Of a stretch of 64,000 nt of DNA, positions 47,642 to 64,000 are shown piece by piece. The stretch comes from Streptomyces rishiriensis. GTDB taxonomy: Bacteria; Actinomycetota; Actinomycetes; Streptomycetales; Streptomycetaceae. A program made the translations under genes and the position numbers. The notes beneath the pieces were generated by a model. The model was not told where the DNA came from. It ran no database searches and was given only the letters and a program-made list of their open reading frames with translations. The stretch covers positions 5,022,001 through 5,086,000 of the forward strand of contig NZ_JAUSWV010000002.1 in NCBI RefSeq assembly GCF_030815485.1, written 5' to 3'. Position 1 is the first letter of the stretch. Each line of letters opens with the position of its first letter.

Positions 47642-51541
<3,900 letters not shown>

Positions 51542-51619: not shown

Positions 51620-51880
51620 CTAGCGGCCGGTCAGCTCCCAGGCGGTGACGGCGACCGTCGCCACGGCGGCCAGGGCGCCGATGCTGGCGAGCGGCCAGCG
51701 GGAGCGTTCCAGGGCGTCGAGGCGTTGTTCGTGGTCGGCGATCTGTTTGTCGGTCTGGTCGCTGCGCTGGACCAGCAGGGCGAGTGAGCCGTCGACGCGG
51801 GCGAAGCCGGCCTCGACGGTGCCGCGCAGCCTTTCCAGTTCCAGGGCCACGGCGGCCGGGTCGGAGAAGGGTTCGTTCAC
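51620..51880 (-). CDS. Small coiled-coil membrane protein of the lysis module
   Basis: 86 aa from GTG 51880, overlapping the holin stop by four bases. A helix-forming charged region (VALELERLRGTVEAGFARVD; QTDKQIADHEQRLDALERSR) is followed by a single C-terminal transmembrane helix WPLASIGALAAVATVAVTAW. The layout resembles haemolysin XhlA-like or spanin-like lysis accessories, without sequence proof. Confidence 0.75.
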   Translation of the reverse strand: MNEPFSDPAAVALELERLRGTVEAGFARVDGSLALLVQRSDQTDKQIADHEQRLDALERSRWPLASIGALAAVATVAVTAWELTGR

Positions 51881-52125
51881 GCGTCGCTCGTTTCGCTGGG
51901 CTTTCCGCCGGCCGGGACGTCCGTGCGCAGCCACGAGGGCAGCAGGGTCTGTACGGCGGGCAGGGCCATGACCCTGGTCACGCCGCCGGCGGCGGTGAGC
52001 GCCGCGGCGACCCAGGGCAGGGTGCCGGGAATGCCGGCGGCGTGGACGACCGCCGGAAGCAGGACGCACAGGCCGACAGCGGTCTGGAGGACGGTACGGA
52101 GGGTGCGCTTGGCGGCCTCTGACAT
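51877..52125 (-). CDS. Holin-like membrane protein
   Basis: 82 aa. MSEAAKRTLRTVLQTAVGLC, then two hydrophobic helices (AVGLCVLLPAVVHAAGI and LPWVAAALTAAGGVTRVMAL) and a short polar tail. This is the common small-holin plan in actinophages. It sits directly between an amidase endolysin gene and the coiled-coil membrane protein. A role in pore formation to release the endolysin is inferred. Confidence 0.78.
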   Translation of the reverse strand: MSEAAKRTLRTVLQTAVGLCVLLPAVVHAAGIPGTLPWVAAALTAAGGVTRVMALPAVQTLLPSWLRTDVPAGGKPSETSDA

Positions 52126-52141: not shown

Positions 52142-53029
52142 TCAGGAGCTGTAGGGGACCTTGAGCGCCGCCCAGGACGTGGCGCCCGGCCAGCCGTCGG
52201 CGGCGGAACCGGTGTAACCGAGCTTGCGCTGCCACTTGGCGTAGGAGAGCCGGTCGGCCTCGGTCCACTGCGGGCCGGGCCCCGAGGCGTAGGCGGAACA
52301 GCCGACGGCGACCAGGCGCCTGCCCAGCGCGGTGACGATCGCCGACTTCGGGTTCTTCCGGAACCAGGCGGCGCCGGGGAAGGGCTGGTACCGCGGCTCG
52401 CTCGTGCCGGCGCCCGTACCGGTGCCCGGGGTGGTGGGCTTGCCCAGCCGGGCGGTGACCCTGGTGCGGAAGTCGGTCATCGCGAAGCCGCGCGGGTCGA
52501 TCTTCTTGTTCGTCCACTCCTTGTGGCCGATCACGGAGGCGGCCGACCAGCCGTGGGCCCGGCACAGCGCGGCGGAGGCGCGGACCATGGCCTCCAGCTG
52601 GACCGCCGGCCAGGGGTCCTTGCCGTCGCCGAGGTTGACGCACTCGAAGCCGTAGAAGTGGACGTTGCCGTCCGTGTCGTTCTCGTCGGGCGCGGGCAGT
52701 GCCTTCTCGGCGATGACGGCGCGCAGGACGTCACCGTCGCCGCTTCCCGCGTGGTTGGCGCGACCGTTGCCGACGAGGTGGACCGTGCCGTCCTTGGCGA
52801 TCACGCCGTGGCAGAGCGGGCCGGGCAGGGCGGAGTGGCCGTCGAAGCACATACTGACGCTGTTGCTGGTGCCGGAGGTGACGGTGTGGTGGATGACCAC
52901 GCCGTTGACCGGTCCCCAACTTCCCTTGTGGTTACGGTTGTTGGTGCGCCAGCCGGAATGCTCGACGACGCTGACGCCCTCGGCCCGCAGTGCGGACACG
53001 AGGGCGTCGGCCGAGAGGGGGTTGGCCAT
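52142..53029 (-). CDS. N-acetylmuramoyl-L-alanine amidase endolysin
   Basis: 295 aa from ATG 53029. Amidase_2 domain (about 25-185) with the zinc His in VVIHHTVT (His47/48), HAGSGDGD, and VIGHKEWTNKKIDPRG (His169, Lys175). After a Gly/Thr linker the C-terminal ~85 residues (WFRKNPKSAIVTALGRRLVA ... WQRKLGYTGSAADGWPG) resemble a peptidoglycan-binding domain. No signal peptide, so it depends on the adjacent holin. It cleaves the amide bond between MurNAc and the stem peptide. Confidence 0.9.
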   Translation of the reverse strand: MANPLSADALVSALRAEGVSVVEHSGWRTNNRNHKGSWGPVNGVVIHHTVTSGTSNSVSMCFDGHSALPGPLCHGVIAKDGTVHLVGNGRANHAGSGDGDVLRAVIAEKALPAPDENDTDGNVHFYGFECVNLGDGKDPWPAVQLEAMVRASAALCRAHGWSAASVIGHKEWTNKKIDPRGFAMTDFRTRVTARLGKPTTPGTGTGAGTSEPRYQPFPGAAWFRKNPKSAIVTALGRRLVAVGCSAYASGPGPQWTEADRLSYAKWQRKLGYTGSAADGWPGATSWAALKVPYSS

Positions 53030-53140
53030 GGTGGTGCCTTCCGAGGAGGGTGCGGGCATGAGAAAACCCCGGCCGGCGGGGGAGCGGCTCGGGGTGGCGG
53101 GGGTGGCGGCGAGGGCCGTTCTTCTGTCGGTGCGGTGCCC

Positions 53141-53709: not shown

Positions 53710-54450
53710 TCAGGTCTGGCGGCCGTGCATGAGGACCGGGGTGGCGTAGACGGTGCCGGAGGCGCTGGTGACGATCGCCTGGACCTCCACCTTGAGCGTG
53801 GTGGTGTACACGGTGGAGAAGGTGGTGCTGATCAGGTCCGTGTAGTCGAATTCGGTGCCCGCGGCGACCGTGGGGCCCCACTGGGCGCTGTTCACCAGCA
53901 CCCGGACCTGGCCGGCGGCGCCGGAACTGGCCGCGGTGTTCAGCCGCAGGCGCATCTTCGGCTGCCAGACCGGGTTGTACGACATCGCGATCGTCGCCCA
54001 GGCCGTGGAGGTGGTCTGCGGCCAGCGCGTCTGCGCCGCATCCTGCGGGGGCAGCATGGCCAGCCAGGGCCGGGCCAGCCCGCCGCTGTTGACGTCGTCG
54101 GAGAAGATCTCCCGGTTGCCGCTGTCGTAGATCCGCAGCGGCTGGAGCGAGTTCGCGCTGCCGTCCCCGTTGAACAGGGTCATGGCGAGGCTGCCGGTCT
54201 GGCGGTGGATCTCCAGGCCGTACTCGGCGTCCTTCCAGGAGCCGACCCGGAACATCGTGTCGGTGCTGCCGGGCCGCTGGACCAGCAGGGTGCCGCCGTC
54301 GGTGACCTTCAGGGTGCCGTCCTTGATCTCCACCTCGCCGCCGGTGATCGTGTTGAGGGCGGGGCGGGTGTTGACGGCGGTGGACAGCTGCTGGATGCGG
54401 CGTTCCATCTGGGTGAGCCGGTCGATGATGTCTTCGGGGAGCTGGGGCAT
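53710..54450 (-). CDS. Fibre/tip-like tail protein with N-terminal coiled coil
   Basis: 246 aa from ATG 54450 (GGAGG 4 bases upstream). A short coiled coil (DIIDRLTQMERRIQQLSTAV), then an Ala/Thr/Gly-rich beta region GGEVEIKDGTLKVTDGGTLL typical of trimeric phage tip proteins, and a C-terminal beta domain (VWQPKMRLRLNTAASSGAAG). One base overlaps the preceding gene (TGATG). Likely a structural tail-tip or fibre component. Confidence 0.78.
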   Translation of the reverse strand: MPQLPEDIIDRLTQMERRIQQLSTAVNTRPALNTITGGEVEIKDGTLKVTDGGTLLVQRPGSTDTMFRVGSWKDAEYGLEIHRQTGSLAMTLFNGDGSANSLQPLRIYDSGNREIFSDDVNSGGLARPWLAMLPPQDAAQTRWPQTTSTAWATIAMSYNPVWQPKMRLRLNTAASSGAAGQVRVLVNSAQWGPTVAAGTEFDYTDLISTTFSTVYTTTLKVEVQAIVTSASGTVYATPVLMHGRQT

Positions 54451-55592
54451 CAGGCCTCCTCCAGGTAGAGCTCGGCGGTGTCGGGGCGGCCGCGCTGGGC
54501 CGGGCTGACCTTGACGCCGATGATCCGGTAGCGGGCGTCCAGGCCCTCGGTCCACCACTCGTCGGCGATCCGGAGCCGGACGGTGCGGCCCAGCAGCGCG
54601 GACGGCACCAGGTCGTCGAGGCGGACGCTGATCTCGGGGATCACCACGGCGCCGGTGCCCTCGGCGAGCTCGGCGTTGGCCAGGGACCGCAGGATCGTCG
54701 TGCTCGCGATGTCGTTGTGGTCCGAGGCGAGGTCGATCCGCGGGTAGCCGACCTCGATCAGGGCTCGGCCGTCGGGGATGTCGGCGTCGGCGAACAGCGG
54801 GCGGGACTCGACGGCCTGGTTGGTGTTGTCCGTGGCGCCGCGGGCCCGGGCGGTGGTGCCGCCGCGGGTGGCGTCGCGCGGGAAGGTGTACGACAGGATC
54901 GTGCCGGGCCGGTCCATGACCAGGTCGGTGCTGCCGGTGGTGATCTTCGGGCTGCCCAGCCGCAACCGGCGCACCCGGGTGCCGGTGACCGGGTCGCGGT
55001 AGACGGCGATGTAGTGCTCGAAGCCGTTCTCCAGGGCGGCCAGGGCGTCGATCGCCTCCAGATAGACGGTCTCGTCGCCGTCGCGGTACGACACCGCGCG
55101 CGACCGCCCCGAGGTCTCGGTCCCGTACGTGACGCCGATGTCGCCGCCGGTCGGGGCGGGCGGCGTGCCGTCGTCGACGAGCTCGCCGGTCTGGAGGTGC
55201 CGCCACAGGCGCCGTGCCACCTCCAGCTGGTCGTCGCTCCCGGAGAACGTGAGGTCCTGGCGGATACGGCGGCGGCCCGCGTACGACTCGAAGGTGGCCG
55301 CCTGGATGCCGAGGGTGAGCACGCCCCGGTCGTCGCTCTGGAGGGTGGACGTCCAGATGATGCCGCCCCACCACAGGTCGTTGCCGCGCTGGAGGTAGAC
55401 GGAGGTGCGGCCCTCCTCGATGCGGCGGACGCGCGCGGCCATCTCCGCGTTGGGGACGGGCACGGTGCCGGAGAGGGATCCGGCCCTGCCGATGTAGTCG
55501 TCGACGGTGACGTCCCGCAGGGGCAGGATGTCGATGGTGTCGTCGGTGCGCAGATCGCAGAAGATCGCGCGGTAGGGGGTGGTCGTGGTCAT
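54450..55592 (-). CDS. Minor tail protein (ReqiPepy6 Gp37-like)
   Basis: 380 aa from ATG 55592. MTTTTPYRAIFCDLRTDDTI ... LPLRDVTVDDYIGRAGSLSG and later AGRRRIRQDLTFSGSDDQLEV are typical of the Gp37-like tail hub proteins of actinophages, related to the tail-associated/hub fold that closes the tail tube. Ends GRPDTAELYLEEA. Assigned by recognition of the family pattern. Confidence 0.82.
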   Translation of the reverse strand: MTTTTPYRAIFCDLRTDDTIDILPLRDVTVDDYIGRAGSLSGTVPVPNAEMAARVRRIEEGRTSVYLQRGNDLWWGGIIWTSTLQSDDRGVLTLGIQAATFESYAGRRRIRQDLTFSGSDDQLEVARRLWRHLQTGELVDDGTPPAPTGGDIGVTYGTETSGRSRAVSYRDGDETVYLEAIDALAALENGFEHYIAVYRDPVTGTRVRRLRLGSPKITTGSTDLVMDRPGTILSYTFPRDATRGGTTARARGATDNTNQAVESRPLFADADIPDGRALIEVGYPRIDLASDHNDIASTTILRSLANAELAEGTGAVVIPEISVRLDDLVPSALLGRTVRLRIADEWWTEGLDARYRIIGVKVSPAQRGRPDTAELYLEEA

Positions 55593-55629
55593 ACGGCGGT
55601 CAGCTCCCAGGGCCGGTGTCGGTCGGCGC

Positions 55630-56652
55630 TCACAGCACGAAGCAGGCGGAGAAGCGCAGGACGTTGCCCACCGCGATGACACCGCTGGTCGACCAGCTGA
55701 CGAGCTGGACCGAGCCGTCGGCGGCGATCCGGACGGCGCCGTCGGCGTATCCGTCGCTGGCGCAGGCGTAGGTCTCGATGACGGGACGCCAGCCGGCGGG
55801 CAGGGCGCACATCAGCTCGTCGGCGACGTTGCCCGGACTGGTGGTGCCGGCGGCCGTCGCGGTGAGGGCGCTGGTGGTGCGGGTGAGGCCGACGGAGAAC
55901 GAGCACACACCGCGGGTGCGGCGGGCGCCGAACCACGACAGGGACCAGTTGCCCTGGGCGGTGAGGCCGGCCGTGGTCGTCTCCACGACGAGCGGCGGCT
56001 GGTAGTCGGCCCAGGCGGTGCCGGACCAGCGCTGGAACACGCCGTTCAGGTCGCGGTACTGGCCGGGGTACGCGCCGTTGGAGGCGTCGGTGGTCACCGG
56101 GAGGATGCCGCCGACACCGACCGTGGCGGTGCGGCGGCCGACCAGCGCCGTGGCCCAGGCGATGCCGCCGGTGCCCGCGCTCGCCTTGGCCGGGACGGTG
56201 ACCTCGTACAGCGCAAGCGACAGGCCGGGCGCCGCCGGTACCGCCGGGGCGGCGGCCGGGATGCCCGGGACGATCTCGACGACGGCCTCGCTGCGGCCGG
56301 AGCCGTCGTAGGCGTCGTCGTAGATCCGCAGGACGAGCAGGTCCACGCGCTGGTACTGGGCGTCGCCGTCCGCGAACGTCACGGGCAGGTACTCGGTGCT
56401 GGCGACCGGGTAGGCGCCCCTGGCGTCGGTGCTCTGGAGCACGGCACGGCCGGGGCTGACCGTGGCGGACATGCTGTTCGCCGTGCCGCTGAGCGTGAAG
56501 CCGGAGATGCGGTAGGCGCCGTCGGAGGAGCCCGGCAGGACACCGGAGCGGGTGGCGACGGGCGAGGTGGGGGTCAGGGCGCCGAGCGAGACGAGTCGGG
56601 TGTCCTCGCGGGACTGGCTGTCGGGGGAGAGCCATCCGGAGCGCACGGGCAT
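55630..56652 (-). CDS. Modular fibre-like protein 4 (1 central repeat)
   Basis: 340 aa. N-terminal ~190 residues shared by four tandem paralogues: MPVRSGWLSPDSQSREDTRL, VDLLVLRIYDDAYDGSGRSE. One central repeat (GQYRDLNGVFQRWSGTAW, then ADYQPP), followed by a unique C-terminal domain (SWFGARRTRGVCSFSVGLTR ... LRFSACFVL). The shared N-terminus probably docks to the tail; the unique end would contact the target surface (inference). Confidence 0.83.
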   Translation of the reverse strand: MPVRSGWLSPDSQSREDTRLVSLGALTPTSPVATRSGVLPGSSDGAYRISGFTLSGTANSMSATVSPGRAVLQSTDARGAYPVASTEYLPVTFADGDAQYQRVDLLVLRIYDDAYDGSGRSEAVVEIVPGIPAAAPAVPAAPGLSLALYEVTVPAKASAGTGGIAWATALVGRRTATVGVGGILPVTTDASNGAYPGQYRDLNGVFQRWSGTAWADYQPPLVVETTTAGLTAQGNWSLSWFGARRTRGVCSFSVGLTRTTSALTATAAGTTSPGNVADELMCALPAGWRPVIETYACASDGYADGAVRIAADGSVQLVSWSTSGVIAVGNVLRFSACFVL

Positions 56653-56695
56653 GGTCGACTCCTTTCGGGGAGACGTGCGGGAGCGGGCCGCCGGT

Positions 56696-57883
56696 TCAGG
56701 CGATCGGGTCGACGCGCAGGAAGATGGTGTCGAACGCGCAGGTGAAGGTCGCGTTGCTCGACCGGTGCATCGCGGTGACGGTGTAGGTCGAGCCGGCGGT
56801 GAGGGAGGCCAGGCGCAGCTGGGTCGACGTCGACTTGGACACGGCGCCCGAGCCGGACGCGGCCCGCTCGTCGTCCGCCGCCCAGATCACCGTGGAGCCC
56901 AGCGTGACCTGCGGCGACATGTGCGCCTGCGCGGTCTCGCCGCCGGAGGACATCCGGGCGCCCAGGCTGATGATCACGGCGCCGGACGGCGGAGCGGTGA
57001 AGTTGAGCGTGAGCGCCGTGACGGCCGTGGAGGCCAGGGCGGCCGTGTACGTCGTCGAGGCGGTGGTCCCGGCGTCCAGTGACTGCGCGAAGACGGGCCC
57101 CGGCACGGCCGGCTGCCAGGCGCTGCCGTTCCAGCGCTGGAGCTGGCCGAGCGTGGAGTCGCGGTACTGGCCGACATAGCCGCCCGTGGTCAGCACCCCG
57201 GCCGGGACGAGCCCGCCGACGCCCTTCGGGTAGGACACCCAGGCCGTGGAACTCCAGCGCTGGAGCGTGTCGTTGACGTCCCGGTAGTGGCCGGGGTAAC
57301 CGCCGGGAGCGGTGTCGTCGGAGCGGGTCGGCAGGATGCCGCCGAGCGGGACGGTGGTGGGGCGCAGATCGACGCGGGCGCTGTCCCAGTCGATACCGCC
57401 GCTGCCGGCGCCGGCGTTCTTGGCCACGGCGACGGTGAACAGGACGAGGGAGGCGTCCGGGGCGGCGGGGGCCACCGGGGTGGCGGCCGCGGCGCCCTTG
57501 ACGATCTCGACGACGGCCTCGGTACGGCCGGACCCGTCGTAGTCGTCGTCGTAGATCCGCAGGACGACGAGGTCGACGCGGCCGAACTGGGAGTCGCCGG
57601 CGTCGAAGGTGAGCGGGACCGGTTCGGTGACGGCGACCGGATAGGCGCCGCGGGCGACGGACGTCTGGACGACGGCCCGGCCCACCCCCACGGTGGCGGT
57701 CATGCCGCCGGTGGTGCCGTTCAGCCAGAGTCCGGTGACCCGGTACAGGCCGTTCTCGGAGCCGGGCAGGACACCCGAGCGGCCCTTGATGTCGCTGACC
57801 GGGGCGACCGCCCCGATCTGGGTGACCCGGGTGTCCTCCCGGGTCTGGCCGTCGGGCGACAGCCAGGCGGAACGTACGGCCAT
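56696..57883 (-). CDS. Modular fibre-like protein 3 (2 central repeats)
   Basis: 395 aa from ATG 57883. Shared N-terminal domain (SAWLSPDGQTREDTRVTQIG; VLPGSENGLYRVTGLWLNG). Two central repeats (GHYRDVNDTLQRWSSTAW; GQYRDSTLGQLQRWNGSAW). Unique C-terminal domain with TALTLNFTAPPSGAVIISLG and STQLRLASLTAGSTYTVTAM, a beta-sandwich-like sequence. The longer open frame to 59119 is a shadow through the next paralogue. Confidence 0.83.
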   Translation of the reverse strand: MAVRSAWLSPDGQTREDTRVTQIGAVAPVSDIKGRSGVLPGSENGLYRVTGLWLNGTTGGMTATVGVGRAVVQTSVARGAYPVAVTEPVPLTFDAGDSQFGRVDLVVLRIYDDDYDGSGRTEAVVEIVKGAAAATPVAPAAPDASLVLFTVAVAKNAGAGSGGIDWDSARVDLRPTTVPLGGILPTRSDDTAPGGYPGHYRDVNDTLQRWSSTAWVSYPKGVGGLVPAGVLTTGGYVGQYRDSTLGQLQRWNGSAWQPAVPGPVFAQSLDAGTTASTTYTAALASTAVTALTLNFTAPPSGAVIISLGARMSSGGETAQAHMSPQVTLGSTVIWAADDERAASGSGAVSKSTSTQLRLASLTAGSTYTVTAMHRSSNATFTCAFDTIFLRVDPIA

Positions 57884-57921
57884 GATGGTTCCCTTCGTCA
57901 GGTGGCCGGGCAGAGGGCCGG

Positions 57922-59136
57922 CTAGGACGCCGACTCGTAGGTGCCGTGGAGGGAGAGGATGTCGTTGACGGCCCAGGTGAAGGGGGCCGACTTGTCCCAC
58001 GGGCTGGTGCCGGTCCTGAGCGTGTCGCGCAGCGAGCGGACGACCCCGCCGTTGGCCACCGCGAGGAGCCCGCTGCCCTGGTACATGAGGACCGCGGAGT
58101 CGTCGAAGGCCTCCGCGTTCAGCACGCGGCCGTCCAGCTTCCAGGCGGTGGAGACCGGCGTGGCCGGCAGCGAGAAGCTCCAGTCGCCGTTGGCGTCCTG
58201 GGCGGACAGGTTGGTCGTCGAACCGATCTTGAGGTAGATCCGGAAGGTGACGACGGTGCCCGTCTTCACGTACGCCCCGGCCAGCGTGCCGTTCCCGATC
58301 GTGGGCGCCGTGCCGGTGTCGCAGCGCCAGACCGGCGTGTAGTTCGTCCAGGTCGGGACCGGCTGGTAGGTCACCCAGGCGGTGCCGTTCCAGCGCTGGA
58401 GCCCGGCGGGGCTGTCGCGGTACTGGCCGGTGTAACTGGCCGTGCCGACCGCGCCGGACGGGGCGATGCCGCCCAGGGCGCTGGGGTAGGACACCCAGGC
58501 GGAGCCGTCCCAGCGCTGGAGAGCGCCGCCGGAGTCGCGGTACTGGCCGGGGTAGGCGCCGTTGCCGGTGTCGCCGTAGACGGGCAGGATGCCGCCGACC
58601 GCGACGGTGGGCGTGCGCAGGTCGCTCACATCGGTGCTCCAGTTGATCCCGCCCTTGCCGGCGCTGATGCCGGCCCGGACGGCGACCTGGTAGACCGGCA
58701 GCGCGATCCCCGGGAGCGCGGGCACGACGGGGGTGGCCGACGGAGTTCCCCGGACGATCTCCACGGCGGCCTTGGTGAAGCCGGAGTCGTCGTACAGATC
58801 GTCGTAGACGCGCAGCACGACGACGTCGATCCGGCCGTAGGAGGCGTCGCCGTCGGCGAACGTGAGGGTGATCGGCTCGGCCAGGGTGACCGGGTAGGCG
58901 CCCTGGTTGCTGTCGGCCTGGACGACGGCCCGGCCCTCGTGGACGGTGGCGGTCATGGTGCCCGCGCGGCCCTCCAGCCAGAAGCCCGAGAGGCGGTACT
59001 GGCCGTCGTAGGAGCCGGGCAGGATGCCGGAGCGGACGTCCAGCGGGTTGGCCGGGGTGGTCGCGCCGAGCTGGGTCAGGCGGGTGTCCTCGCGGGTCTG
59101 GCCGGTCTCGGCCACCCATGAGCTGCGCAGGTTCAT
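57922..59136 (-). CDS. Modular fibre-like protein 2 (2 central repeats)
   Basis: 404 aa. MNLRSSWVAETGQTREDTRL and RSGILPGSYDGQYRLSGFWL in the shared N-terminal domain. Central repeats GQYRDSGGALQRWDGSAW and GQYRDSPAGLQRWNGTAW. Unique C-terminal domain (WTNYTPVWRCDTGTAPTIGN; WSFSLPATPVSTAWKLDGRV) similar in style to phage beta-sandwich receptor-binding tips. Ends LHGTYESAS. Confidence 0.84.
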   Translation of the reverse strand: MNLRSSWVAETGQTREDTRLTQLGATTPANPLDVRSGILPGSYDGQYRLSGFWLEGRAGTMTATVHEGRAVVQADSNQGAYPVTLAEPITLTFADGDASYGRIDVVVLRVYDDLYDDSGFTKAAVEIVRGTPSATPVVPALPGIALPVYQVAVRAGISAGKGGINWSTDVSDLRTPTVAVGGILPVYGDTGNGAYPGQYRDSGGALQRWDGSAWVSYPSALGGIAPSGAVGTASYTGQYRDSPAGLQRWNGTAWVTYQPVPTWTNYTPVWRCDTGTAPTIGNGTLAGAYVKTGTVVTFRIYLKIGSTTNLSAQDANGDWSFSLPATPVSTAWKLDGRVLNAEAFDDSAVLMYQGSGLLAVANGGVVRSLRDTLRTGTSPWDKSAPFTWAVNDILSLHGTYESAS

Positions 59137-59206
59137 CTGCTGGTCTCCTGTGGTCGTCGGAGGCGAACTCCGGGGTGCGAAGGGTGTGAGGGTCCGTCAG
59201 GACGCG

Positions 59207-60523
59207 TCAGGACTTGAGCCATTCGGCGGCGAAGTTGGTGTAGTAGCCGGAGCCGCCGAGGGTGATGATGGTCGAGCCGGAGTTCTGGAGCCCGTAGAGC
59301 GCGAGCTTGTCGCCGACGGCGCACCTGATCAGGGCGGTGCCGCCGACCGAGGTCGCGCCGGGGCCCGCGCCGACCAGCCAGGTGGCGCGCGCGACGCCGT
59401 TGCCGTTGAGGTAGACGCGCCCGCCGCGCGAGCCCGTGGAGGGCTGCATGAGCCAGGTGACGGACCCCGACACCCGCCACCAGCCGGCCCTCGGCACCGT
59501 GTAGGTGTTGGATCCCGACCAGGCGCCCGCGTCGTCGACGTCGGTGCCCTGCAGGGTCATCTGCGTCCACGTGTTGTGGACCACGGACTGCTCGCTGGTC
59601 TGCGAGACGCTGAGCAGGAGGGTGGTGCGGCCCTCCGCGTAGCTCCAGGCCGAGCCGTTCCAGCGCTGGAGGAGACCGGCGGAGTCCTCGCGGTACTGGC
59701 CGGGGTAACCGCCGGTGGCGACGGCGCCGGAGGGGGCGATGCCGCCGACGGACTTCGGATACGCCACCCAGGCCGAGCCGTTCCATCGCTGGAGCGGACC
59801 GGTGGGGTCCTCCTGGTACTGGCCCGCGTAGCTGCCGGCGGTGAGGGTGCCGGCCGGCGGGATGCCGCCGACGCCCTTGGGGTACGCGACCCAGGCGGTG
59901 CCGTCCCAGCGCTCCAGGACGCCGGCGTTGTCCCGGTACTGGCCGGCGTACGCGCCGCTGAAGCCGGCGGAGGGCACGATGCCGCCCAGGGCGACCGTGG
60001 CGTAGCGCAGGTTGGCGACGGCGGAGTCCCAGGCCAGTCCGCCGGAGCCGGCCGACGCCCCGGCGGGCACCAGGATCCGGTACAGCGGCAGGGTGCTGCC
60101 GTCGGGGCCGACCGGCTGCTGGGGCGTGGCCGCGGGGGTGCCCTTGACCAGGCGGACGCGTGCCACGGTGTCCGCGGTGCCGTCGTAGGCGCTGTCCTGG
60201 ACGACGAGTTCGACCAGGTCGATCCGCTGGTGTGTGGGGTCGCCGTCCTCGACGGTCAGGCTCTCGGGTTCGGTCACCGCCACGGGGTAGACGCCCTGGC
60301 CGGTCCGGCCGCCCTGCACGAAGGCGCGGCCGGTGCCGACCGTGCAGGTCATGCCCCCGGGGGCGCCGGTGAGCGCGAAGCCGCCGGGGACGATACCGCC
60401 GCGGGCCTTGAGCGGGATGTTCTCCGCGACCAGGGCGTTCGGGGTGAGCAGTCCGGACAGGGTGACCCGGGTGTCCTCCCGGGTCTGGCCGGTCTCGGTG
60501 AGCCAGGCGGCTCGTACGGTCAT
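59207..60523 (-). CDS. Modular fibre-like protein 1 (3 central repeats)
   Basis: 438 aa. First of the array, 4 bases after the distal tail gene. Its shared domain is the most divergent (VRAAWLTETGQTREDTRVTL; ARGGIVPGGFALTGAPGG). Three central repeats (GQYRDNAGVLERWDGTAW; GQYQEDPTGPLQRWNGSAW; GQYREDSAGLLQRWNGSAW) and a unique C-terminal beta domain (WTQMTLQGTDVDDAGAWSGS; GWWRVSGSVTWLMQPSTGSR). Confidence 0.85.
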   Translation of the reverse strand: MTVRAAWLTETGQTREDTRVTLSGLLTPNALVAENIPLKARGGIVPGGFALTGAPGGMTCTVGTGRAFVQGGRTGQGVYPVAVTEPESLTVEDGDPTHQRIDLVELVVQDSAYDGTADTVARVRLVKGTPAATPQQPVGPDGSTLPLYRILVPAGASAGSGGLAWDSAVANLRYATVALGGIVPSAGFSGAYAGQYRDNAGVLERWDGTAWVAYPKGVGGIPPAGTLTAGSYAGQYQEDPTGPLQRWNGSAWVAYPKSVGGIAPSGAVATGGYPGQYREDSAGLLQRWNGSAWSYAEGRTTLLLSVSQTSEQSVVHNTWTQMTLQGTDVDDAGAWSGSNTYTVPRAGWWRVSGSVTWLMQPSTGSRGGRVYLNGNGVARATWLVGAGPGATSVGGTALIRCAVGDKLALYGLQNSGSTIITLGGSGYYTNFAAEWLKS

Positions 60524-60527
60524 GGGG

Positions 60528-61448
60528 TCACCACTCCGCTTCTCGCCAGCGCACCGTCATCTGGGCGCCGGTGCCGTAGGTGTCGGGCCGGAAGGCCAGC
60601 TGCGCGCGGCCGGGGGCGAACGCGAAGAGTTCCTCGGGGCTGCTGTCCGCGGCCGCGGTGTGCCGGCGGGAGGCCGTGCCGTTGAGGGTGACCGTGCCGG
60701 CGGCGGTGTCGACGACGAGCTCGTCGCCCGAGGCCAGCGCGATCTCGTAGCGCAGCCGCTGCGCCGAAGTCCGGTCGGTCACCGTCGGGTTGGCGCACGG
60801 GCCGGTGAAGGTGATCACCGGGTGGGTGGGCGCGGAGCCGCCGTTGTCGGCGTTGACGTCCCCCGTGGAGGCCGCCTGACCCCAGTACAGCGGCCAGGTC
60901 AGCGGCCAGGTCAGACCGCTCTCCGGCTGCGGGGCGCCGGTGACGGCGGTCTGCTCGGTGACCGAGTACCGGCGCGGGTCGGTGGCGTACCACTGCACGG
61001 ACGCCCGGGAGACGCCCTGCGTGGTGTACGTCCGGTCGGCGGCCAGCACCCGCTGGCTGACCCGGGCCCGTACGGCCAGCGTCTCGCCGTGCAGCCGCAC
61101 CGCCAGCCAGCGCTCGGCGTCGCCGAGCAGCAGGGCCTGGCGCAGGACGCGGGTCGCGGTGAGCGCTGAGACGGTGTCGTCCTGCGCCGGGACGGTCCAC
61201 ACCGTGCCGCCGACCCTGCGCGGCTTGGCGTAGCGGGCGCCCGGCCAGGCGCCGTGCGCGGTGGGGTGGTCGGCGTCGGAGGAGTCGTACTCCGGCAGGT
61301 CCTCCCAGCCGTTGAGGCCGCCGCGGTCGATCTCGTAGGAGGTGCCGGGGCCCATCAGCAGTCCGGCCCACTGCATCTGCCCGTCGCGGGTGATGAGTGA
61401 GCCGGGGGCCACATCGTCTGTGTATGCGGTTGTCGTGATCTCGGCCAT
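60528..61448 (-). CDS. Phage distal tail protein (Dit / siphovirus tail component)
   Basis: 306 aa. ITRDGQMQWAGLLMGPGTSY and the segment WEDLPEYDSSDADHPTAHGA followed by PGARYAKPRRVGGTVW are the signature of actinophage distal tail proteins; the C-terminal half contains NPVITF-like HPVITFTGPCANPTVTDRT. Dit forms the hub between tube and tip. Position after the tape-measure genes supports this. Confidence 0.86.
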   Translation of the reverse strand: MAEITTTAYTDDVAPGSLITRDGQMQWAGLLMGPGTSYEIDRGGLNGWEDLPEYDSSDADHPTAHGAWPGARYAKPRRVGGTVWTVPAQDDTVSALTATRVLRQALLLGDAERWLAVRLHGETLAVRARVSQRVLAADRTYTTQGVSRASVQWYATDPRRYSVTEQTAVTGAPQPESGLTWPLTWPLYWGQAASTGDVNADNGGSAPTHPVITFTGPCANPTVTDRTSAQRLRYEIALASGDELVVDTAAGTVTLNGTASRRHTAAADSSPEELFAFAPGRAQLAFRPDTYGTGAQMTVRWREAEW

Positions 61449-61460
61449 CGGGCCGTCACC

Positions 61461-61712
61461 TCACTCCTTGTGTACGGGCTTGTGGGCGAGCTGGTGCGGG
61501 CGGGCTTGTGCGCGGCTCGGCTGCGAGCACGGGTGAGGGCTGGTGCGCGGGCTCATGGGGGGACGCGGCTGTCGGCGCATGGGCGGGTGCGGCCGCGTGC
61601 CTATGGGCGGTGGGGGCTGCTGGTTCACGGGCGGGTGCGGGTGCGTGTCCGGAGGCGGCTGCGTGTCTGGGTGCGGCTGTGTGCCCGGGTGCGCGTGCGG
61701 GGTCAGGCGCAT
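61461..61712 (-). CDS. Possible His/Pro-rich small protein
   Basis: 83 codons from ATG 61712 to TGA 61461, starting MRLTPHAHPGTQPHPDTQPP and ending HQLAHKPVHKE. It overlaps the end of the preceding gene by 10 bases and ends 12 bases before the distal tail gene, exactly filling the gap. The G/T-rich low-complexity DNA could also be a non-coding expansion, so the call is uncertain. Confidence 0.35.
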   Translation of the reverse strand: MRLTPHAHPGTQPHPDTQPPPDTHPHPPVNQQPPPPIGTRPHPPMRRQPRPPMSPRTSPHPCSQPSRAQARPHQLAHKPVHKE

Positions 61713-62992
61713 GCGTGGGCCGCGGCCAGGAAGAGCAGGTCCTCCGCGGTGCCCCGGGCGCCCGTGCCCGCGCTCTCGTGGAACTCCTTGACCCGGTACG
61801 GCGGTGCTGAGGTCCGGGCCCGGTGCCGCCGGGCGAGCACGCGCTGCCGCTCCAGGGCGGTCAGCGGCAGCACCCGGCCCGCGCCCCGGGAGGCGCCGGG
61901 GACGGCGATGCCGCCCTCCGCGAGCATCGGGATCTTGTCCAGGTGGATGCCGAACTTCTTGCCGAGGATGGAGAAGCTCAGGGAGTTGAGCCCGTCGATG
62001 ACCCAGTTGGCGAAGGCGATGAGTCCCTGGATCGGCCCCTTGACCACACCGGCGACGGTCTGGGTGCCGGTCGTCACGAACTTCCCCATCGCGTCGAGGG
62101 TGCGGGAGGTGGCCTCCTTGATCCGGGTGAACATCCGGGGGACGTCCCTGGTGATCCACTCCAGCGCCGGCCGCACCGCGTCCTTGAACCCCCGCCAGAC
62201 CGACGACACCTTGCCGCTGAGCGCCCGGGTGTCCCCGGTGGTCAGCGCCTTCATGACGGCGAAACCGGTACCGAGGAGCGTGCCGATGACGGTGAGCGCG
62301 GTGGTGATGACGGCCAGGTATCCGGTGACGTACGTGTTCACCGCGCTCGCGATGCCCTTGAGCAGCGGCGTCATGAGGATCAGATAGCCCTCGACGTACT
62401 TCAGTACGAGGGTGGCGAGCTGCTCCATCAGCCGTTGCCCGGTCTCGGAGGTCAGCGCGAGATCGATCAGCCAGCCGGCGACGGGCAGGAGGAGACCGGT
62501 GACGAACCCGATGGGGTTGGCGCGGGTGAGGGCGTTGATGATCAGCATCACGCCGGAGCCGATGGTCATGGCGGTGCCGAAGGCGCCCATGAGGTCGCCG
62601 AGCACGCCGGAGGCCTCGATCAGCGCACCGACGATGGCGAGGACACCGCCGAACGCGGAGTTCAGGGTGCCGAGCGACTTGCCGGCGCCCTTGGCGCGGG
62701 TGCCGGCCGACTTGATGCCGGAGGCGGCGGCGGTGGCGGTCTGCCCGGCCTTCGCGAGAGAGCGGCTCGCGGCCTCGGCGCCGGTCTTGACCTGACGTAC
62801 GGCGGTGGCGCCCTGGGAAGCGGCGGAACGGACGGCGTCGACGCCGGTGGCGGCACTCTTGATCCGGCCGACCAGGGAGCGCGCCGCGGCGGTGTTCTGC
62901 CCCAGCCGGGACCGGAAGGCCTGGAAAGCCGGTGTCACCCCGGCGAACAGGTCGGCCGCCCCGCCTCCCGCAGGCAGTGCGGCGGTACTCAT
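61703..62992 (-). CDS. Tape-measure-like tail protein, shorter copy
   Basis: 429 aa from ATG 62992, overlapping the preceding gene by four bases. An Ala/Gly/Lys-rich helical N-terminus (residues 30-115), several hydrophobic helices (about 115-260) and a C-terminal segment IPMLAEGGIAVPGASRGAGR ... VLPLTALER. That last segment matches the end of the preceding tape-measure-like protein. Typical of phage tape measures, which are helical and contain membrane-active segments. Two such genes in a row is unusual. Confidence 0.78.
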   Translation of the reverse strand: MSTAALPAGGGAADLFAGVTPAFQAFRSRLGQNTAAARSLVGRIKSAATGVDAVRSAASQGATAVRQVKTGAEAASRSLAKAGQTATAAASGIKSAGTRAKGAGKSLGTLNSAFGGVLAIVGALIEASGVLGDLMGAFGTAMTIGSGVMLIINALTRANPIGFVTGLLLPVAGWLIDLALTSETGQRLMEQLATLVLKYVEGYLILMTPLLKGIASAVNTYVTGYLAVITTALTVIGTLLGTGFAVMKALTTGDTRALSGKVSSVWRGFKDAVRPALEWITRDVPRMFTRIKEATSRTLDAMGKFVTTGTQTVAGVVKGPIQGLIAFANWVIDGLNSLSFSILGKKFGIHLDKIPMLAEGGIAVPGASRGAGRVLPLTALERQRVLARRHRARTSAPPYRVKEFHESAGTGARGTAEDLLFLAAAHACA

Positions 62993-64000
62993 CCGCGTGC
63001 CTTCGCCAGGAACATCAGGGCGTCGGCGGTCCGCTGCGGGCTGCTGCTCTCGGCCGCGTAGTAGTGCTCGATGTGCAGCGCGCCGCCCGGACCGCTCGTC
63101 CCGGCGTACGCCGAGCCCTGCGCCGCGGCCCGCCGCAGCAGCCGGTCCAGCTTGCTCAGCGGCAGGACGGCCTCCGCCTCACCGGCCTCGGCGAGGATCG
63201 CGGGGACACCGCCGGAGCGGGGCATGACGACACCGCCGGTGGCCAGCATCGGAATCCTCGGCAGGCTGACGCCGAAGGTCTTGCCGCCGACGCCCGGGAC
63301 CCAGCCCGGGATCGACACCTTGATGCCGTTGAGGGCGCCGATCGCGCGGTTGATGATGCCGATGACCGCGTTGATCGGGCCCTTCACCGCGCCCTTGATG
63401 CCGTCGAAGGCGCGGCCGGCGATGCCCTTGAGGCCGCCCCAGATGCTGGACAGTTTGTCCTTGACGGCCTTGAAGGCGTTCGGGATCGCGGACTTGACCC
63501 AGTTGACGACCGGCGAGATGACGGCCTTGATGCCCTTCCAGACGCCGGAGACGACCGTCTTGATCGCGTTCAGCGCGGTGGTGATGACCTTCTTCCAGAT
63601 GGCGACGTAGGTCTTGATCACCGTGGCGACGGCCTTCACGACGGCCGAGATCGCCGTCTTGATGCCGGTCCAGACCGACTTGATGAGCTTGGCCGCGTTC
63701 TTCATGATCGGCCCGATGGCCTTCATGACGGTGCTGATCACGGACTTGATGACGTCGAAGGCGGTCTTGAGGACCTTCTGCATGGTCTTCGACCTGGTCG
63801 CCATCTCGACGACCTTCTGGATGAGCGGTGCCAGCAGGTCCATGAGCATGCCGAAGAAGTTGCCCTTCATCGACTTGTTCATCTTGTCCTGGCCCTTGGC
63901 CGCCTTGCCCGCCCCGGACTCGTACTTACCGAGGTTCGTGCCGGCACCGGACCCGGTCTTCCCGGCTTTGCCGAGCGACTTCTCGGCCTGGTCGGAGGCG
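62989..64000 (-). CDS. Tape-measure-like tail protein (5' end beyond window)
   Basis: At least 336 residues; the frame is open to the window edge, and the ATG at 63882 is internal. Visible sequence alternates Lys-rich and hydrophobic helices in near-periodic fashion (SVWTGIKTAISAVVKAVATV; VSGVWKGIKAVISPVVNWVK), as in tail tape-measure proteins. The C-terminus has IPMLATGGVVMPRSGGVPAI and VLPLSKLDRLLRRAAAQG, shared with the following gene. Likely the length ruler and/or DNA-ejection channel protein. Confidence 0.8.
   Translation of the reverse strand, partial: ASDQAEKSLGKAGKTGSGAGTNLGKYESGAGKAAKGQDKMNKSMKGNFFGMLMDLLAPLIQKVVEMATRSKTMQKVLKTAFDVIKSVISTVMKAIGPIMKNAAKLIKSVWTGIKTAISAVVKAVATVIKTYVAIWKKVITTALNAIKTVVSGVWKGIKAVISPVVNWVKSAIPNAFKAVKDKLSSIWGGLKGIAGRAFDGIKGAVKGPINAVIGIINRAIGALNGIKVSIPGWVPGVGGKTFGVSLPRIPMLATGGVVMPRSGGVPAILAEAGEAEAVLPLSKLDRLLRRAAAQGSAYAGTSGPGGALHIEHYYAAESSSPQRTADALMFLAKARG

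Follow-up and report, generated by a model that had tools for sequence, protein, structure and literature searches.

The 64,000-nucleotide stretch of the Streptomyces rishiriensis genome analyzed here (contig NZ_JAUSWV010000002.1, positions 5,022,001 to 5,086,000; hereafter the window) carries a phage-tail gene cluster in which four tandem fibre genes share one kind of N-terminal domain and end in four different C-terminal tips. The cluster sits between rpoC and rpsL in a genome of 9.07 Mb. We explain it, with a probability that we put at about two in three, as a domesticated headless siphovirus tail, similar to F-type tailocins, whose duplicated fibres form a stable receptor-binding set.

Four fibres with one anchor and different tips

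Four complete, adjacent open reading frames (ORFs) of 438, 404, 395 and 340 residues fill positions 55630-60523 on the minus strand, all co-oriented and separated by 38-70 bases (Table 1); the start codon of fibre 3, at 57883, is internal to a longer frame. A preliminary description of this DNA had called the four genes paralogues with a common N-terminal domain (N-domain), and this is borne out: the N-domains are homologous along their full length at 48-59% pairwise identity, and all four fibres match phrog_3398, a family of phage virion structural proteins (E 1.2e-60 to 9.7e-65), over the N-terminal ~215 residues in three fibres and over residues 7-360, into the tip, in fibre 3. The N-domain is followed by a ~40-residue repeat whose cores number 3, 2, 2 and 1 in fibres 1 to 4, the same count as first described; the cores score 48.6-54.3 bits against a profile made from these same eight cores, so that the scores cannot count as independent, but the copies are plain in the sequence anyway. 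A 5.9-bit match in fibre 2 (residues 41-52), considered as a third repeat, was judged to be chance. The tips, named T3, T1a, T0 and T2 in fibres 1 to 4 after the families to which they belong, had been described as unrelated and prove so at the sequence level: their pairwise identity of 20-32% is background, and hhalign gives a probability below 1% for all six pairs of the four tip families. The T2 tip of fibre 4 matches phrog_9468.

Sequence searches of solved structures with the four fibre families returned nothing significant (best E 0.065), and up to an E of 1 nothing in the PDB matched the T1 and T2 tips by sequence. Structure prediction places the T3 and T0 tips among the C1q/TNF-like jelly rolls. 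In the model of fibre 3, which averages 78.9 in predicted local distance difference test (pLDDT) score and mostly exceeds 90 in the tip, T0 matches TNF-like lectins (9ib6, Z 12.9, root-mean-square deviation (rmsd) 2.3 over 118 residues; BC2L-C, Z 12.2), and the T3 tip of the fibre 1 model matches C1q domains (4ous, Z 18.0, rmsd 1.9, 129 residues) as well as a central-spike domain of phage phi812 (Z 18.4). Folds of this class are normally trimeric and often bind sugars. Sharing a predicted fold class, T3 and T0 may be very distant relatives. In the fibre 3 model, residues 1-177 can be superposed on 9h7v_BG, a Haloferax tailed virus 1 baseplate protein (Z 9.7, rmsd 3.9, 132 residues), with model residues 1-33 and 42-48 below pLDDT 50; the resemblance fits a baseplate anchor and is suggestive only. 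The modular plan of anchor, spacer and tip, as first proposed, is thus supported.

A tail without a detected head

Upstream of the fibres lie, in order, the distal tail protein Dit, tape-measure pieces, tail chaperones, the major tail protein and the tail terminator; downstream come a minor tail protein, a coiled-coil protein, an endolysin and a small protein in the position of a holin, followed by rpoC. These are tail genes of the non-contractile siphovirus type, no sheath was matched among the cluster ORFs scanned against PHROG and Pfam, and the endolysin gives the cluster a lysis function of its own, the holin being named by position only. The S. rishiriensis genome has no match to the head families PF05065, PF04860 and PF03354, which do not include the head proteins of the three nearest phages, and none to PF05133, PF11651 and PF03237, the families to which those heads belong; as positive controls for the second set, two head-bearing prophage genomes matched three of the three (G090) and two of the three (G079). 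The six families represent capsid, portal and terminase. Eleven head proteins of three phages likewise found no match in any of the 81 loci described below.

Non-contractile headless tails related to siphoviruses are known as F-type tailocins (PMC10598620, PMC8910223). With its tail genes and no match to the searched head families, the cluster is best read, from its genes alone, as a headless non-contractile tail and an F-type tailocin-like element. An ordinary prophage was considered and rejected, no head genes having been found with these families and proteins.

A conserved array beside rpoC

Relatives were collected by scanning genome contigs with a Dit alignment; the best 80 of 122 loci by Dit similarity were joined to the window, and the counts over these 81 loci accordingly lean towards close relatives. 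Three of the 80 (L066, L102, L119) come from records not titled Streptomyces, and the closest named loci by Dit belong to Actinobacteria bacterium OV320 and Streptomyces sp. NBRC 110468. Four fibres occur in 6 of the 81 loci, three in 38, two in 6 and one in 31, so that 50 are multi-fibre loci. A homologue of rpoC is present in 58 of the 81, and in 47 of the 50.

Known phages look different. Among 66 viral contigs, 53 of which carry head markers, 65 have one fibre, one has a fibre gene split between frames and none has two; each of 29 phage records has one fibre place, again never two. The two collections overlap (both hold the same phages, including Picard and Attoomi), and the 29 records include RefSeq duplicates. 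Set against the multi-fibre loci, expansion of the phrog_3398 fibre is thus seen only where no head was found.

A mapping of 20 loci shows the range of arrangements: rpoC accompanies three fibres in six and one fibre in three, capsid genes accompany one fibre in five (prophages), three fibres stand at a contig end in one (L054), one fibre stands with neither an rpoC nor a head match in three (L050, L057, L058), and two are atypical two-fibre loci (L053 in genome G140 and L049 in genome G012), to which we return below. More widely, the N-domain is present in 26 of 150 genomes of the genus, S. rishiriensis included, and Dit is matched in 124 of 392 genomes. A Dit of this particular type occurs in 59 of the 392, counted by eye with the cut placed at a gap in the scores (E 2e-126 or better, the next genome following at 3e-95). 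A family-level search at 1e-20 matched 28 of 121 genomes, and several of these, belonging to other genera, score as high. Two genomes have two Dit matches ~2 kb apart (G332:C26 and G418:C32), which suggests that Dit, alone or together with the fibre, was duplicated in tandem.

Ordered tips, old paralogues and a swap-prone last slot

The 182 tips analyzed fall into four large families and two singletons; T1 divides into T1a (inner slot, 18 tips), T1b (14 in the last slot, 6 in single-fibre loci) and T1c (3). The slots run T3, T1a, T0 and then T2 or T1b in 49 of the 50 multi-fibre loci, the exception being L103, where a singleton tip, T4, stands between T0 and T1b. That locus also holds a 983-base stretch without fibre similarity between fibre 1 and the T4-tipped fibre (L103:11048-12030), possibly an insertion. 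Repeat number goes largely with the tip: T1a has two repeats (17/17) and T1b one (19/19), whereas T3 has two in 29 of 32 cases and three in the other three, T0 two in 52 of 69, one in 14 and three in three, and T2 two in 25 of 35 and one in 10. Besides the window, only L066 and L067 have the full 3-2-2-1 pattern; compared with the window, their orthologous tips are 84-96% and their N-domains 91-97% identical. One locus, L082, was excluded from the tip alignments, from the counts of repeats per tip and from the gene-conversion test below; its array label, with a broken T3 fibre, was set by hand, automatic clustering having placed that frame in T0.

Two quick trees, both with many open forks, bear on the history of the array. 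The N-domain tree (188 rows, one of the two overlapping L082 frames being omitted) requires at least 16 changes of tip label compared with 94.6 for shuffled labels, and the T3 N-domains form one group (support 94); the grouping of the N-domains thus follows slot and tip, not genome, which makes the paralogues old. The rpoC DNA tree was built from 50 of the 58 loci with rpoC (at least 1500 bases), and the eight omitted comprise, among others, all but one of the six four-fibre loci (L066, L067, L070, L075, L082). On it array type changes 10 times, compared with 24.7 for shuffled labels; a clade of 25 loci contains 24 T3-T0-T2 arrays, and the clade of the window carries T1a. Adjacency to rpoC, together with an array type that tracks the rpoC tree, marks a stable, host-inherited chromosomal locus. 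Slots have also been lost and left remnants: next to its Dit gene L071 still has 83 residues of a T3 tip, and part of a T0 fibre survives in L076. Locus L082 appears frame-broken.

The preliminary description had further supposed that tips could be exchanged by recombination in the repeats. On an evolutionary scale this is supported. The clearest case is the last slot: there a single interleaved N-domain clade bears both T2 and T1b tips (10 and 9 rows), and these replace one another at least five times on the rpoC tree. In all four T2/T1b pairs tried, DNA identity is mostly 70-95% up to nucleotide ~650 and mostly 40-60% thereafter, and the drop coincides with the end of the last repeat core, the apparent breakpoint; a T2/T2 pair stays at 70-90% to the end. 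Across loci, however, the tips are not freely variable, given four large families, an order fixed in all but one of the multi-fibre loci and a repeat number mostly fixed per tip. Conserved tips in invariant number, the outcome that the description held to speak against its own scheme, are nearly what we find, except that gene number varies from one to four and the last slot swaps. Its suggestion of gene conversion between the paralogous N-domains is unsupported: no tract rose above threshold, and identities within and between loci differ by 0.005 at most. The tiny excess within loci (0.005) is confined to slots s3-s4 in both clades and s1-s4 in clade A, and was reached by 29, 0 and 1 of 1000 permutations.

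Might the missing head instead mark decay? A functionless prophage remnant would also lack detectable head genes, and apparent erosion does occur, in the frame-broken L082, in the slots reduced to remnants and in the split cluster of G012. Yet fibre arrays are open in 50 loci, array type agrees with the rpoC tree, the arrays hold more fibre genes than phages, not fewer, and the ratio of nonsynonymous to synonymous substitution rates (dN/dS), in comparisons with L066 and L067, is below 1 for every gene or segment that yielded a ratio but one. We regard decay as very improbable.

How the fibres may be deployed

Why would one tail have several fibre genes? We propose that duplication, probably later than the loss of the head, turned one original fibre gene into a stable group of two to four. 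Each fibre would consist of an N-terminal domain anchored in the baseplate, between one and three short spacer repeats and a C-terminal knob of its own. Since the anchors are homologous to one another and the genes follow Dit immediately, in a row with a common orientation, the most likely arrangement is that the fibres attach at equivalent sites of the baseplate. Headless tails would be expressed and then released by host lysis; one particle, or one burst of particles, would display several tips at different reach, and the knobs would recognize several surface ligands of competing streptomycetes, with killing by whatever means F-type tailocins use. A single tail-like weapon could perhaps recognize several targets in this way. 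The T2 tip matches 64 phage records, all from Streptomyces phages, which points to streptomycete targets.

The sharing of one anchor by all four fibres also means that they would compete for the same sites, and each particle might bear a single fibre kind, the paralogues differing in timing or assembling apart to give a mixture of mono-specific particles. We consider this rather unlikely, as the genes are co-oriented, closely spaced and each complete, and no terminator-like site lies inside the array (a weak test, the region having 2 such sites, the same as shuffled sequence). Inverted repeats between 54.4 and 61.5 kb are short (11 pairs, the longest 29 nucleotides at 72%, the best 19 nucleotides at 95%) and no recombinase was found among the cluster ORFs scanned. 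Phase-variable inversion of the fibres was considered on the same data and rejected, as a weak negative.

Alternatively, the paralogues could be fixed subunits of one asymmetric fibre assembly in an obligate hetero-oligomeric baseplate, much as C1q is a heterotrimer of paralogous chains. The fixed order, the divergence of N-domains by slot and the mostly fixed repeat number per tip would all suit such an assembly. However, gene number ranges from one to four, slots are lost singly with remnants left behind, and relatives exist with a single fibre, so that no single slot is obligatory; we therefore hold an obligate assembly to be quite improbable.

A third possibility is a developmental or self-lytic tail, a role already proposed for the contractile injection systems of Streptomyces, whose tips bind the envelope of the producer and which is no antibacterial weapon. 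The contractile systems of S. coelicolor are described as acting on the producer (PMC10066040, PMC10020575), and the restriction of T2 matches to Streptomyces phages would agree with such a role. The present cluster, though, has its own endolysin, its recognized tail genes are solely non-contractile, and none of 19 genes checked contains a TTA codon, so that there is no sign of bldA control. We judge this role improbable.

Several observations count against the domesticated, headless tail that we favor. In genome G140 a divergent two-fibre cluster (L053; G140:C1, 3775-11725) lies away from rpoC, with fibres 30-36% identical to fibre 2, perhaps as an independent headless system, and in G012 the cluster is in two parts ~53 kb apart; neither the site nor the integrity of the cluster is therefore universal. 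Neither genome matched any of the five head families tried on it. Outside the window and these two genomes, the head search covered head proteins of three phages within flanks of at most 10 kb. Some 20 single-fibre loci besides L053 have no rpoC in the stretch examined. The T1 tip finds 144 of its 151 matching phage records in phages of other genera, so that tip families are not species labels, and a search of the phage collection at 1e-4 returned nothing for the window's own T3 and T0 tips. Two true phages, Gibson (MK305891) and Rooney (MZ648033), each encode two adjacent minor tail or hypothetical proteins (genes 25 and 26) that both carry a T2-like tip, on a different N-part. The fibre 1 model averages only 58.7 in pLDDT, with a low-confidence N-domain; the small protein in holin position has no Pfam match; and the one dN/dS value above 1, for the N-domain of fibre 4 against L066, is 1.41, at a dS of just 0.039.

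Several single-fibre (T0) clusters (L117-L123, L128, L132, L140, L143) have a major tail protein but lack any match to rpoC, to a lysin or to head proteins over the stretch examined; these are perhaps a second chromosomal site or distant prophages.

Genes around the array

The features of the cluster and its borders are collected in Table 1. Beyond the tail terminator come a helix-turn-helix (HTH) gene and a WhiB-like gene, the latter named from sequence, and then rpsL, rpsG and fusA, named from their translations. The HTH repressor-like and WhiB-like genes (L010:144-1182), which flank the tail cluster on its rpsL side and of which one or both recur in L046, L051, L052 and L054, are possible regulators; no exact SOS box (GAAC-N4-GTTC) occurs within 51.5-73 kb. 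The tape measure is split into tandem ORFs of 429, 397 and 229 residues (window 61703-64000; L009:11703-14882), of which the first two match the same PHROG, have similar ends by eye and are both present in most of the 20 mapped loci, as if the tape measure had been duplicated too. Between it and the chaperones, outside the window (L009:14911-17347), a plus-strand ORF weakly resembles vWA-TerF (E 1.3e-4, below the Pfam cut-off); this stretch has no match in the other 20 mapped loci, and the ORF is a candidate accessory or immunity gene.

Table 1. Tail cluster, fibre parts and flanking gene, in window coordinates unless a locus label is given
Feature	Position	Strand	Details
rpoC	47642..51541	+	left chromosomal border of the cluster; named from translation
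small protein, holin by position only	51877..52125	-	homologue in 48/50 multi-fibre loci
endolysin, N-acetylmuramoyl-L-alanine amidase	52142..53059	-	Amidase_2 E 2e-23; phrog_880 E 1.7e-77
tail-region protein	53710..54480	-	phrog_9849 E 7e-48; start codon approximate; coiled coil at N-terminus, judged by eye
minor tail (baseplate) protein	54450..55598	-	phrog_1885 E 1.5e-61
fibre 4	55630..56652	-	340 residues; phrog_3398; N-domain 56077-56652; one repeat core 56002-56076; tip T2 55630-56001
fibre 3	56696..57883	-	395 residues; phrog_3398; N-domain 57305-57883; repeat cores 57230-57304, 57107-57184; tip T0 56696-57106
fibre 2	57922..59136	-	404 residues; phrog_3398; N-domain 58561-59136; repeat cores 58486-58560, 58366-58440; tip T1a 57922-58365
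fibre 1	59207..60523	-	438 residues; phrog_3398; N-domain 59957-60523; repeat cores 59882-59956, 59759-59836, 59636-59713; tip T3 59207-59635
distal tail protein Dit	60528..61448	-	SPP1_Dit E 5.9e-12; phrog_5577 E 1.6e-81
tape-measure piece A	61703..62992	-	phrog_3981 E 1.9e-23
tape-measure piece B	62989..64000, continuing to 64182 beyond the window	-	phrog_3981 E 7.7e-29
tail chaperones, major tail protein, tail terminator	L009:17381-19560, beyond the window		PHROG/Pfam matches

Discussion

Parts of this arrangement have precedents, and the preliminary statement that no system with this plan has been described was too strong. Tailocin clusters with multiple fibre genes are mentioned (PMC10598620), and phage CBA120 (Ackermannviridae) carries on each particle four receptor-binding tailspikes of different specificity, TSP1-4 (PMC8825819). 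CBA120 is a phage, however, and its spikes dock mutually through TSP4, whereas the four fibres of the present headless, non-contractile tail have an N-domain in common and would attach at equivalent positions; a branched tailspike complex of the CBA120 type was considered and set aside, all four N-domains being homologous over their length. The F-pyocins have a non-contractile headless tail as the present cluster does, in another host phylum; what seems to set the present cluster apart is its tandem homologous fibres with conserved, unrelated tips. Carotovoricin, a tailocin of Pectobacterium, is conserved across its genus at one locus and also exchanges tail fibres (PMC13195805), but those fibres are described as highly variable, discordant with the species phylogeny and also inverted, unlike the few, ordered tips seen here, which mostly follow the host tree except for last-slot swaps.

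Closer to home, Streptomyces siphophages of the SV1/Picard type use the same phrog_3398 fibre family, and Picard, Attoomi and Hiyaa share the order of tail genes, but these phages have a single fibre gene together with head and terminase. The Streptomyces contractile injection systems (SLP/CIS-Sc) are also derived from phage tails and conserved in the genus (PMC8910223); they are described as contractile, whereas the present cluster is not. Among open-licence papers, judged largely on titles and the starts of abstracts, we found no description of a Streptomyces F-type tailocin of this kind. Multi-fibre tailocins and multi-spike phages were thus known already, and the present cluster differs in that all its fibres have a homologous anchor, that their order and, mostly, their repeat number are fixed, that the tips are conserved, and that expansion was seen only where no head was found.

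The fuller version of our proposal is that head loss freed the tail from matching one host and allowed three or four receptor-binding proteins, differing in tip and reach and arranged in a set order, to become fixed on one baseplate as a conserved multi-warhead tailocin in about 50 species-level Streptomyces genomes. To this version we would give slightly less than an even chance. If true, it would invert the expectation that a tailocin has one rapidly evolving fibre, with only the end slot prone to swaps, and it makes the question of several homologous fibres on a single tail a testable one. It would also show what becomes of receptor-binding proteins once a tail need not deliver a genome. 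Streptomyces are the main producers of antibiotics, and the tail-like particles that the literature covered describes for them are of the contractile kind; if confirmed, a non-contractile tailocin that is widespread and bears a fixed set of tips would give the genus a second class of protein weapon.

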